In this document: one piece after another, positions 37,786 through 58,220 of the stretch
Numbering within the stretch: the first letter of the stretch is position 1
How the letters are laid out: the number at the start of each line of letters is the position of its first letter
Assembly: GCF_001523745.2 (NCBI RefSeq)
Contig: NZ_CP013387.1
Coordinates: forward strand, 2,666,001-2,730,000
Source: Burkholderia mayonis
GTDB lineage: Bacteria; Pseudomonadota; Gammaproteobacteria; Burkholderiales; Burkholderiaceae
Length of the DNA: 64,000 nt
Direction: 5' to 3'
The notes under the pieces: model-generated
Database searches by the model: none
Seen by the model: only the letters and a program-made list of their open reading frames with translations
What the model was told of the DNA's origin: nothing
Position numbers and translations under genes: made by a program

Positions 37786-38892
37786 TCAAACACCCTGCAT
37801 TTTCAAGCGGTTCGCATGCGTGCGCAGCACCGCGACCGGATCGGCCGCGTACGCGCCGCGGATGCCGAGCAACTGGTTGATCTCGTCGAAGTGGTTCCAC
37901 TTGTAGTCGGTCGAAATCACTGTTCCGTACAGCGAACTGCAGGTCGACGTGAAGCCGTCGTTCGGCCCCGCCTGCTTGAGCGCCATGATGTTGCCGGCCG
38001 TCAGGAACACGAGCGTCGACGGATCGAGCACGTTCGCCGGATCGACGACCGGGATCGTGCTCTTGTCGACGGCGCCCGTCGTGAGGCCGAACACCGTGAT
38101 CGGCTGGTACGCGCTGCCGCTCCACGAATACAGCAAGTGCACGTTCCCGGCGACCGTCTCGCTCGGCGCACCCGGCGCGCACGCGCCCGGCGCGCCCAGG
38201 CCCGCGCTCGGGAACTGGTCGTTGAACTGCGTCGCGTACGGTGTGCTGAGCGCGTTCAGCGCGGCGATCGCATCCTGATTCGTGTTGTGCGCGTGGCTCG
38301 TCAGGATCCCGAAAATGTTCAGCAGCTCGCCGAAGATCGGCGTCGACAGGCCGGTCGGATCGAGCTTCAGCGCGCCGAGCACGAAGTCGGCGAACTGCGA
38401 GCCGCGATGCGGCGTCGCGATCGTCGTCACCGACGCGACGAGATCCGGCGCGACCGCCGCGACGTAGCGCGACGACAGTCCGCCCTGGCTGTGGCCGATC
38501 AGGTTGACCTTCTGCGCGCCGGTGACGGCGAGCACTTGCTTCACGTACGCGAGCAGCTGCTCGCCGCGCCCGTTCGGGCCGAGGTCGCTCTGGAATCCCG
38601 ATAGATCGGCGATGAACACGGTCGCGCCGTGCTGCTGCAGATCGGACTGCATGCCGTACCAGTACGGCAGGATTCCGAAGTAGTCGTCGGTGCCCGTGAG
38701 GCCATGGACGAGGATGATCGGATAGCGCGTCGCCGCGTAGTCGTCGACCGCACCCGCTGCGGTGTCCGCATGTACCGCCGGCGGCGCGGCGACCGCGCAA
38801 AACGCGGCGACGATCCCGGCCGCCCACGCTCTCCCCAGTTTTTTCCTCGCGACGCGCGCCGCCGCGGCGACACATTCGAACATCGAATTCAT
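37786..38892 (-). CDS. lipA: secreted family I.2 triacylglycerol lipase (B. cepacia type)
   Basis: 368 residues from ATG 38892, with AGGGGA upstream. A signal peptide ends near AVHA and the mature part starts [19 protein letters not shown]. The catalytic triad is Ser135 (GHSQGG), Asp312 (GPNDG) and His334 (KWNHFDEIN); all are offset by 48 from the B. cepacia lipase residues 87/264/286. The disulfide Cys pair (Cys238, Cys318) and the calcium-site Asp after the His are also present. Such lipases need a LifO foldase, normally the next gene; none is here. It is the last gene of the biosynthetic run, 79 bp after the PPTase gene, and may be a passenger or act on the product. Confidence 0.92.
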
Positions 38893-38971
38893 TGTTGATA
38901 TCCCCTGTTTCAAGCCATACTCGAACGATGCCGCACGCCTGTTCGCCGCAGTCGCGGCGCCGGGCGGCAGC

Positions 38972-39736
38972 TCACCACCCCAAACAGAATCCGTGCACGT
39001 CGGCGCCGCGATTCTCCATCGCGACCGCGGCGCGCCATGCCGCGCCGAGCGCGACGTCGGCGACCGCCCAGCGCACGCCGTCGCTCGCGCATTCGTCACG
39101 CGCGGCGGGCAGCGCGGGCCACGGCATCTCCAGCTCGCGCGGATCGCGCCGCAGGCCCGTGCCGTGCGCCTTCAGCAGCGCCTCCTTGCGCGTCCAAAGC
39201 TGCAGCAGCAGCCGCTGGCGCGCGCAGGCCGGCGTTTGCGCGAACAGGTCACGCTCGCGTTCGCCAAGGCTGGCGGCCGCGAGCGCATCGACGTCGATCT
39301 TTCGATCGAGCGATTCGAGATCGCAACCGACCCGCTGCTTCGCGATCGCCATCAGCACCGCGCCGCTCCCGTGGCTCACGCTGAATTCGAGATCGCGGCC
39401 GAACAGCACCGGCTTGCCGCCCGGCTCGACGTCGAACACGAGCCGCGCCGGATCGACGCTCAGGTATTCGCCGAGCACGACCCGCAACATCGCGCGCGAG
39501 AACACGAACAGCTCGCGATGCGCGCCGTATTTGAGCCGTGCGGCGCGCTCGTGCTCGCTGAGCGACAGGCAATCGCGCTTCAGATACGATCCCGCCTCGT
39601 CGGCGCGTGCACGCCACACGTGCACCTCGCCTCGCATCAACCGCTCCGTCAGCGCAGCCGACGGCCTCGCGACGCTGAACCGCAGCGCCGCCATGTCGTC
39701 GTGCAACGTCGCGTGCGGCAATTCTTCCACCATCAT
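38972..39736 (-). CDS. Sfp-type 4'-phosphopantetheinyl transferase
   Basis: 254 residues. The two PPTase motifs are present: VGCDLE at 136-141 (magnesium-binding Asp139 and Glu141) and [15 protein letters not shown] at 181-195. It transfers the phosphopantetheine arm of CoA to a carrier-protein Ser. The obvious target is the ACP of the AT-ACP protein in the same minus-strand run (Ser467). Sfp-type length and broad-specificity features fit secondary metabolism rather than AcpS. It starts 71 bp after the DUF4345 gene. Confidence 0.92.
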
Positions 39737-56561: not shown

Positions 56562-56663
56562 AAATCGCAGTGGTCAGGATTACCAAACATTCGGACGAGA
56601 CTCTCCGTCTGATCCGGCCCTCTCCTCTCGTTTTTCTCGTGGCGCGCGGTGCGTGCGCGGCGC

Positions 56664-58220
56664 TCAGCTCATGACGAGCGCCGCCGCCTTGCCCTGGTGT
56701 TCATGGACGAAGTCGACGATCTGCCCCATCGCCTTGAAGTCGCCGGCGCGGAAGTTCGCCGGCAGCGGCGGCAGCCCGTAGCGGGCGGTGATCCGCTGGA
56801 TGATCTCGGTCTGCTTGACCGAATCGATCCCAAGCTCCGCTTCGAGCTCGACCGTCTCGGTGAACACTTCGACCGGATACTCCATCGCTTCCGCGTAGAT
56901 CGCGACGAGCTCGGTGAAGAGCCGGTCGCGCGGCACGTGCGCGGTCGGGGCCGCGGCGGGCGCGGCCGGTGCTTGCACGATTGGAGCGGCCGGCGCTTGC
57001 GCGGCCGGCGAAACGCTCGCCGCAGCCGCATGCGCGGCCGGCGCGAAACCGGCCGCGCCGCCGCGTTCGGTCACGATTTGCGGCGCGGGCGTCGCCTGCA
57101 GCCCCCGCGCGTCGAAGTAACGCTTGAGCTCGCCCTTGATCTTCTCGACGATCCCCGGACCACTGTCGCGCCAGAACTCGTCGAAATCGAGTTGCAGATG
57201 GCTTGCGCGAATGTCGTCGTTCATGACACTACCCCCATTGAAATATGCGAGAACGTTCTCCAGGCCGCCGAGTTCGCCTCCCACGCTCGACGCGCCCGGA
57301 AAGGTCTTGATGGCGCCGGGTCCCAGCGCGCGCACCGCGATCTTGCTGAGCACATTCAGCGCACCGCACTCGACGAGCGCGCCGACACCCGCGGCTTTCA
57401 GTCTTGCGACCCCATCTCCGAACCGGACCGGCAATACGAGATGGCGCGCGAGACACGCGCCGAGATCGTCGGCTGCCGAGTAATAGCGATTCAATATCGG
57501 TGAATAAACCGGATATTCGAGCGCTTTATTTCTATAAGCTTTCAGACGTCGCCCGAATTCAATTCGCGCATTTTCCAGATCGTCGTGATGAAATGCGTAA
57601 GGCGAATTCAATATTTGCGCGGATGTATTATTTCGAATGCAATAAGCCGAGAATTCATCGACGTATTCTTGCGCGCCCGATACGACGGTCTGCGACGCAT
57701 GATTTTCGACCGCGATCTGCACGCGCCCCTTGCGTTCTTCGGGCGCGCCGCGAAAGCATGCGGCGAGATGCGCGCGCACCGCGTCGGGTGACGCGGACAC
57801 GGCCGCCATCCGGCCGCCGGCGGGCGCGGCCGCGCGCAGCGCGTCGATCCGGTCGCAGACGATGTCGGCGCCTTCCTCGATCGAGAACGCGCCGCCGCAC
57901 GTGAGCGCGGCAATCTCGCCGAAGCTGTGTCCGACGAGCACGTCGGGCCGCACCGCACGCGCGCGCAGCGCCTCGAAGTATGAGATGGACGTCGCATAGA
58001 TCGCGAGTTGCAGCAGATCCGGCGCGTATTGCAGGAGATCCTCGACGCCGACGTGCTCGTCCCACAGCGTCGCGAGCAACGGACGGCGCAGCCGTCGGAC
58101 GGAAACGGCATCGATGGCTTGCATCGCCCGCTGCACCGCGGGATACGCGCCGCTCAACGCCCGCGTCGCGCCCGCATGGAATGCGCCTTGCCCGGGAAAC
58201 AGAAATGCAACTTGCACCAT
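56664..58220 (-). CDS. acyltransferase-ACP fusion
   Basis: 518 residues. ATG 58220 is chosen; an in-frame TTG at 58244 is less likely. Residues 1-300 are a FabD-like AT: FLFPGQGAFHAG, nucleophile Ser99 in GHSFGE, and SPYAFHHD (YAFH, near the HAFH of malonyl-type ATs). An Ala/Pro linker at about 375-430 joins an acyl-carrier domain with ELGIDSVKQTEI, Ser467 being the phosphopantetheine site; the DSVKQ context resembles PUFA-synthase ACPs, but there is only one copy. It loads malonate onto its own ACP for the megasynthase. First gene of the operon; 102 bp separate it from the megasynthase. Confidence 0.9.
   Translation of the reverse strand: MVQVAFLFPGQGAFHAGATRALSGAYPAVQRAMQAIDAVSVRRLRRPLLATLWDEHVGVEDLLQYAPDLLQLAIYATSISYFEALRARAVRPDVLVGHSFGEIAALTCGGAFSIEEGADIVCDRIDALRAAAPAGGRMAAVSASPDAVRAHLAACFRGAPEERKGRVQIAVENHASQTVVSGAQEYVDEFSAYCIRNNTSAQILNSPYAFHHDDLENARIEFGRRLKAYRNKALEYPVYSPILNRYYSAADDLGACLARHLVLPVRFGDGVARLKAAGVGALVECGALNVLSKIAVRALGPGAIKTFPGASSVGGELGGLENVLAYFNGGSVMNDDIRASHLQLDFDEFWRDSGPGIVEKIKGELKRYFDARGLQATPAPQIVTERGGAAGFAPAAHAAAASVSPAAQAPAAPIVQAPAAPAAAPTAHVPRDRLFTELVAIYAEAMEYPVEVFTETVELEAELGIDSVKQTEIIQRITARYGLPPLPANFRAGDFKAMGQIVDFVHEHQGKAAALVMS

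Follow-up and report, generated by a model that had tools for sequence, protein, structure and literature searches.

What does a bacterium make with a polyunsaturated fatty acid (PUFA) synthase-like enzyme whose genes share an operon with a Lol-like export module, and where does the product go? The question is raised by a window of 64,000 nucleotides from Burkholderia mayonis (the whole stretch analysed; contig NZ_CP013387.1, positions 2,666,001 to 2,730,000), which carries an eleven-gene cluster on its minus strand from 37,786 to 58,241. The host genome is 6.59 Mb in two contigs. The operon probably makes an oxidised alkyl secondary lipid, which a small cassette of an ATP-binding cassette (ABC) ATPase, an FtsX-superfamily permease, a LolA-like carrier and an outer-membrane barrel carries to the outer membrane. 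The cluster is real, conserved and, as far as the searches reach, uncharacterised.

The original prediction described eleven minus-strand genes, most of them joined by overlaps, and the open reading frame listing, a codon-usage gene caller and Pfam all agree on them (Table 1). Six of the ten junctions overlap. ATGA overlaps join the megasynthase to the cytochrome P450-ketoreductase (KR) gene, the latter to the flavin monooxygenase (FMO) gene, the permease to the LolA-like gene and the LolA-like gene to the barrel; TGATG overlaps join FMO to ABC and ABC to permease. The remaining four junctions are gaps of 102, 38, 71 and 79 bases with the gene caller's starts. The start codon of the gene for the acyltransferase (AT) and acyl carrier protein (ACP) is uncertain, at either 58,220 or 58,241.

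Table 1. Genes of the cluster, their positions in the window and the evidence for each assignment (KS, ketosynthase; CLF, chain length factor; DH, dehydratase; ER, enoyl reductase; SDR, short-chain dehydrogenase/reductase; PPTase, phosphopantetheinyl transferase; pLDDT, predicted local distance difference test score).
Gene product	Position	Strand	Evidence
AT-ACP, malonyl-type acyltransferase (by motif) and one ACP	56664..58241	-	PF00698, PF00550; GHSFG, xAFH, Arg, GIDSVKQ
ER(FabL-like SDR)-KS-CLF-KR-DH megasynthase, 2139 aa	50142..56561	-	Pfam and active-site motifs
P450-KR-double hotdog protein, 1371 aa	46030..50145	-	Pfam for P450 and KR; motifs; model pLDDT 91.7
Class B flavin monooxygenase (FMO)	44528..46033	-	PF00743; FxGxxxHxxxY; PDB relatives
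LolD-like ABC ATPase	43827..44528	-	PF00005; conserved
FtsX/MacB/LolC-superfamily permease	42400..43827	-	PF02687; PDB matches YtrF, MacB, LolC
LolA-like periplasmic carrier	41561..42403	-	PF17131, 125 bits; PDB 3buu
18-strand outer-membrane barrel	40245..41564	-	Model pLDDT 84.9; Foldseek; without Pfam match
DUF4345 small membrane protein	39808..40206	-	PF14248; three hydrophobic segments (hydropathy count)
Sfp-type PPTase	38972..39736	-	PF01648; motifs; presence pattern across loci
Secreted lipase, B. cepacia lipase family	37786..38892	-	PDB group with 3lip, 506 bits; clade 100/100

Relatives of the cluster were gathered by scanning one genome per species, which gave 20 loci (numbered with L), 15 of them in Burkholderia or Paraburkholderia; a plasmid copy of P. 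ginsengisoli brings these to 16, with L001 and L008 from one species. The motifs of the megasynthase were compared over 17 rows, the window and 16 loci, leaving out L008. In every row the KS carries Cys/His/His, the CLF lacks the Cys (His in 16 rows, Phe in L017), the KR has S-Y-N and the DH retains its His and Asp. The N-terminal SDR has Y-x6-K in all 17 rows, which we take to be the active site of FabL-type enoyl reductases. FabL is also its best single-SDR NCBIfam model, at 253 bits against 210 for the next and 206 for FabG, short of the FabL equivalog cut-off of 328 bits. Judged by motif, the domain is a putative FabL-type enoyl reductase. Between the CLF and KR of the megasynthase lies an APA/AAP linker repeat (53064-53180, residues 1128-1166), and the total length of its relatives varies from 1,891 to 2,158 aa.

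The sole AT of the cluster was compared over 13 rows (L008 left out, as were L001, L006, L015 and L016, where the gene call is short or absent). All 13 have GHSFG and an Arg, with a YAFH, YGFH or YPFH motif; the position of the malonyl Arg is our own assignment, and the motifs suggest a malonyl-type enzyme. The cluster has a single ACP, whose motif, GIDSVKQ, presumably resembles that of PUFA-like ACPs. For the PPTase, the motif patterns given in PMC3098273 serve as reference: GGKP satisfies the P1a pattern x(G/D)xP, FSVSH matches the P1b' pattern of Types M-T, and P0 is imperfect (LRVVLG). Pfam finds no thioesterase (TE), terminal reductase or condensation (C) domain among the eleven genes, as had been predicted, and none of the eleven encodes a PfaB-type AT.

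By domains and motifs the cluster falls within the secondary lipid (Pfa-like) synthases, defined in PMC3098273 as having at least one KS, ACP and KR together with malonyl acyltransferase (MAT), CLF, DH or ER domains in various orders. With the Types A-T of Shulse and Allen (2011), as described there, it shares an iterative KS-CLF, MAT, KR, DH and ER, and a linked PPTase with the P1a motif. The differences from those types are one ACP rather than tandem ACPs, a FabL-like SDR where those have PfaD, the lack of a PfaB-type AT, a P450-KR fusion and a second, non-dehydratase hotdog. The PfaA model TIGR02813 gives 301 bits against a curated score of 1010. PfaB, the terminal acyltransferase of PUFA synthases, is described in PMC12895367 as having GYSxG and no malonyl Arg, in contrast to the AT of this cluster. 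The predicted label of PUFA-synthase-like therefore stands at the level of Pfa-like domains and does not extend to a Pfa synthase proper. On the best reading of its domains, the synthase would lie outside the characterised Pfa types; in the text of PMC3098273 the word Burkholderia has a count of 0.

Zeamine, fabclavine, megapolipeptin and chitinimine, as treated in PMC13291983, likewise involve a PUFA-like synthase in specialised metabolism, some of them in Burkholderiales. Unlike these hybrid pathways, the cluster has no polyketide synthase (PKS)-nonribosomal peptide synthetase (NRPS) line and no TE. The term P450 is absent from the main text of that paper.

The P450-KR protein is where the predicted domain list has to be amended: all eleven genes are present, and the terminal "DH" of this protein does not hold as a dehydratase by motif. 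Its P450-KR motifs were compared over 16 rows (L008 and the cut L016 left out; L017 shows the KR half only) and its KR-hotdog part over 44 rows, consisting of the window and 43 relatives (42 of 120 listed proteins and L017). Residues 470-1371 share 97% identity with a protein that carries the name B. mayonis. All 44 rows retain S, Y and N in the KR. The roughly 270 residues after it are without a Pfam match and form two hotdog-like halves by secondary structure (model pLDDT 91.7, 44 sequences); Foldseek with the KR-hotdog model ranked ketoreductases first, and the hotdog half was not separately confirmed by it. In the second hotdog domain the column of the dehydratase His is F, V, A or Y in all 44 rows, and the acid column is Glu in all 44, with the register of the acid set by the motif P-x4-[D/E] (when just two sequences were aligned, the acid fell elsewhere). 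As the His is lost throughout, the terminal double hotdog is, by motif, not a dehydratase. The neighbouring FMO has the fingerprint FxGxxxHxxxY in 15 of 15 rows. Baeyer-Villiger monooxygenases are marked by FxGxxxHxxxW, and the FMO has Y at the W position in every row.

The export cassette follows directly. The LolA-like carrier passes the gathering score of PF17131 by a wide margin (125 against 30 bits). The permease falls in the MacB/LolC/YtrF group by its PDB matches and fails the curated LolC/E cut-off, with 59 against 362 bits for TIGR02212. The alignment of the barrel comprised 55 of 120 listed sequences; its model, of 18 strands, resembles porins, AlgE and Occ channels in Foldseek, at template modelling (TM) scores of ~0.4-0.55. 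With LolCDE-LolA-LolB the cassette shares an ABC/FtsX-superfamily pair and a carrier of LolA fold. It differs in having one permease, a PF17131 carrier and a barrel in place of LolB, and the canonical LolA is encoded elsewhere in the host genome. Aryl polyene lipids offer a precedent, as Lol-like and resistance-nodulation-division (RND) genes are proposed in PMC8253772 as their carriers to the outer membrane. There, as here, a LolA-like carrier is proposed to take an acyl product to the outer membrane; ApeL/ApeM/ApeN work with an RND transporter and a LolB-like protein, whereas the cluster has an ABC/FtsX pair and an AlgE-like barrel. A literature search for the ABC/FtsX plus barrel version of acyl export found nothing that could be tied to it.

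Diverged copies of the cassette stand near other acyl genes. Across 65 Burkholderia genomes the cluster-form barrel (at least 68% identity) occurs in 16, one of them a partial match, and 11 further paralogous barrels of 38-40% identity occur in 10. At all 11 a diverged cassette of ABC, FtsX permease, LolA-like carrier and barrel stands together (the ABC gene of L053 is cut by a contig end, and the LolA-like call of L054 is a fragment), and at 9 of the 11 ACP, KS or AT proteins adjoin it. Six copies share a neighbourhood of SbnA-like, RidA, MauG-like and amidohydrolase genes, with an ACP that passes Pfam in five (L039, L041, L048-L050); in L051 the stretch stops short of it. AMP-ligase, PKS and condensation-bearing NRPS genes lie near the G036 copy, the only one read for these. 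Three others (L040, L042, L052) adjoin a type II KS/ACP/SDR set, KS-type by Pfam, with an AMP-ligase and a hotdog in L040 and an ACP just under the cut-off in L042; L053 is a fourth of this kind, its stretch ending before such genes. In L054 (542-4033) the cassette stands beside two AT-domain proteins, one with the FabD helical insert, which suggests another kind of acyl cluster. The six and the four copies are orthologous groups, so the contexts are not independent and the settings of the cassette outside the cluster number about three.

The genes of the cluster are inherited together. The synthase, FMO, cassette, DUF4345 gene and lipase keep the same order at 14 of the 16 Burkholderia and Paraburkholderia loci; L016, an exception, is cut by a contig end. 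The gene distances of nine genes follow those of the megasynthase with r = 0.92-0.996 and p = 0.001 (999 permutations, 10-12 loci). This test drew on 14 loci, excluding L008, L011, L016 and L017, and the PPTase is not among the nine genes; a 50% length filter dropped L007 and L010 for the megasynthase, L001 and L015 for AT-ACP, L015 for P450-KR and L009 for the permease. The predicted union of a PUFA-synthase-like megasynthase with a Lol-like module is thus upheld, in that the cassette is conserved with the synthase and its diverged copies stand near acyl genes. The PPTase lies between DUF4345 and the lipase in L001, L007, L008, L010 and L013, has a distant match in L011 and was not found in the other loci at E 1e-8.

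Across 299 Burkholderiaceae genomes a KR-hotdog search was positive in 11, ten of which are Burkholderia. Among the best 120 of 3,472 matches, the nearest megasynthases over the ER-CLF part are that of B. oklahomensis (96% identity over 74% of this part) and that of B. pseudomallei, which stands for a cluster of 326 sequences (91% over 71%). A search of the open-access literature gave no paper that could be tied to this cluster, and no characterised relative was found in the searches made, in keeping with the first impression that the gene set is not a known pathway.

The lipase was predicted simply as a member of the set, and it can now be placed in the B. cepacia lipase family, as a paralogue specific to the cluster. 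Fourteen cluster lipases are separated from three other Burkholderia lipases (the host's other one and those of two replicons) by a 100/100 branch. The nucleophile elbow GHSQGG is found in 12 of 14 rows, the window's among them; it was not found in L007 and L010, whose lipases share a long branch (0.33) in the tree.

Relatives of the synthase reach beyond Burkholderia. Among the best 120 of 3,472 matches, the FabL-ER-KS-CLF-KR-DH family includes Streptomyces, Kitasatospora, Chloroflexi, Symbiobacteriaceae, Paenibacillus and Tumebacillus, the named members having the same Pfam set and ~53-57% identity over the ER-CLF part. In Kitasatospora and Actinacidiphila the P450 is within the same protein as the megasynthase domains (P0332, P0336, P0339, P0341, P0344, P0357), which makes a second kind of link between P450 and synthase. 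Gene context was compared for L017, a Symbiobacteriaceae bin, alone. Its genes run AT-ACP-ACP, megasynthase, P450 (here a separate protein) and KR-hotdog; on its 25.7 kb, ending at the contig end, FMO, permease, LolA-like carrier, barrel, DUF4345, PPTase and lipase have no match, and ABC has two weak matches 7 kb upstream. This agrees with use of the synthase core in a cell that has no outer membrane. A search for further monoderm relatives matched the L017 genome alone (1 of 398). No product or characterised member of the family was found in the searches made, and matches on Streptomyces plasmids were rejected as relatives, being more distant KS-CLF clusters. After the KR-hotdog gene of L017 stands a gene for 549 aa (19447-21096, plus strand) with an HxxxD stretch, by eye like a condensation-like acyltransferase and without a match in Pfam or the PDB sequences; it is a candidate release enzyme in L017.

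From these genes we infer the chemical steps, what the cassette carries, where the product goes and what the lipase does. The PPTase would arm the single ACP, and the AT, by its motif, would load malonyl units. KS-CLF would then extend the chain iteratively, with the first KR (KR1), the DH (DH1) and the FabL-like ER reducing it, so that the chain should be largely saturated or in part unsaturated. During assembly or just after it, the second KR (KR2) and the P450 may add a hydroxyl group or another oxidation, and the FMO would perform a further one. The ABC/FtsX pair would lift the amphiphilic product from the inner membrane, and the LolA-like protein would carry it to the AlgE-like barrel for delivery at or through it. 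The secreted lipase likely acts on the product; it would work outside the cell, with the product or a precursor ester as its substrate.

Several points weigh against this account of synthesis and export. PF17131 and FtsX/MacB-type proteins serve other substrates too, and no release enzyme was found among the eleven genes. L011 (Paraburkholderia sp. LEh10) has the synthase, FMO and DUF4345 with only an ABC fragment of the cassette: the fragment and DUF4345 occupy the cassette's usual place (21777-22501), and permease, LolA-like carrier, barrel and lipase have no match in the locus. In L013 (21413-26784), counted among the 14 loci above, ABC, barrel and PPTase are in broken frames, through sequence error or decay. 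Given the loss in L011 and the broken ABC and barrel frames of L013, it may be that the cassette is dispensable, or that the two loci are in decay. The correlation of distances partly reflects species phylogeny, and the monoderm comparison is based on one bin. In the afc lipopeptide cluster, furthermore, an ABC transporter gene is described in PMC6301696 as dispensable for antifungal activity.

A bolder extension, possible but rather doubtful as a joint claim, makes the cassette a general, so far undescribed Burkholderia exit route, to the outer membrane or through it, for chemically diverse acyl products, from PUFA-like, type II KS-ACP, AMP-ligase/PKS/NRPS and AT-bearing clusters, and makes the acid-only double hotdog fused to KR2 the missing release domain of the synthase, thioesterase- or transferase-like. 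A release role is considered because certain hotdog thioesterases work with one acid, placed on the hotdog helix.

The missing release enzyme may also be explained if the synthase supplies the acyl portion of some larger compound, such as a lipopeptide, glycolipid or peptide conjugate, completed outside the window. PUFA-like synthases are known in Burkholderiales hybrids (PMC13291983, in the pathways it treats), and genes just upstream also speak for this reading. In seven loci of Burkholderia cepacia complex (Bcc) type (L002-L006, L012, L014), genes for a microcin-like double-glycine-leader peptide, C39-ABC, HlyD and OEP (Pfam for L004) stand immediately before AT-ACP, at about 2.9-8.3 kb of the loci. 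The overlap of the OEP gene with AT-ACP is 4 bases in L004; in five other loci the gene calls make it 19. L009, L015 and L016 have tetratricopeptide repeat (TPR) and tryptophan-halogenase-type genes upstream, co-directional with the synthase (Pfam for L009), and DUF2827 also in L009 and L015. Such a conjugate is nonetheless unlikely: the upstream genes vary between subclades while the core is constant, a regular-expression scan of the window gave no double-glycine-leader peptide, and none of the eleven genes encodes an NRPS, a further PKS module, a C domain or a glycosyltransferase, the rest of the genome not having been searched.

It is less likely again that the cassette and barrel serve lipid uptake or recycling, or lipoprotein traffic, and merely share an operon with the synthase. 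The cassette families are not substrate-specific, and HpnN, MlaA and MlaC genes nearby make for a general lipid-trafficking neighbourhood; however, the ABC gene overlaps the FMO gene, the cassette genes overlap one another, the cassette is without a match in the monoderm bin, and its diverged copies stand beside other biosynthetic genes. That the locus is decaying or silent, with no present product in this strain, is the least probable reading, and very improbable. Ten gene-called loci (L001-L006, L009, L012, L014, L015) have a foldase gene next after the lipase, one that the window, L007, L010 and L013 lack, and L011 and L013 show loss or breakage; against this, all eleven frames of the window are open, the catalytic motifs tested are intact, and a foldase-like gene adjoins the second lipase, L028, elsewhere in the host genome.

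If synthesis of an oxidised alkyl lipid and its export by the cassette hold true, a product class and an envelope route would be given for a synthase family of Burkholderia, actinomycetes, Chloroflexi and Firmicutes. The crossing of the periplasm by hydrophobic natural products in Gram-negative bacteria would become tractable through one small cassette, and cassette copies could be a genome-mining handle for acyl-type clusters.

The flanking genes are left out of the unit because they change while the core stays. An HpnN-MlaA pair is divergent from the cluster in the window, L007, L010, L013 and L044; in the window, HpnN hopanoid transporter and MlaA-type genes occupy 58807-62434 on the plus strand, and MlaC lies at 33362-33934. 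The upstream MMPL-MlaA pair was rejected as a second export module, as the MMPL protein scores 1387 bits with the HpnN equivalog model, above its cut-off of 1100, and L007 has a squalene-hopene cyclase gene nearby. Identity with the afc antifungal cluster was also rejected, that being an NRPS lipopeptide pathway as described in PMC12186527 and PMC6301696. A transfer RNA reported by ARAGORN at 40,648 is taken as spurious: it falls within the barrel gene, and its anticodon has four bases. Elsewhere in the window, a group II intron RNA (RF02005, 179.7 bits) lies at 7959-8180 on the minus strand, adjoined by a called open reading frame at 6379-7563.

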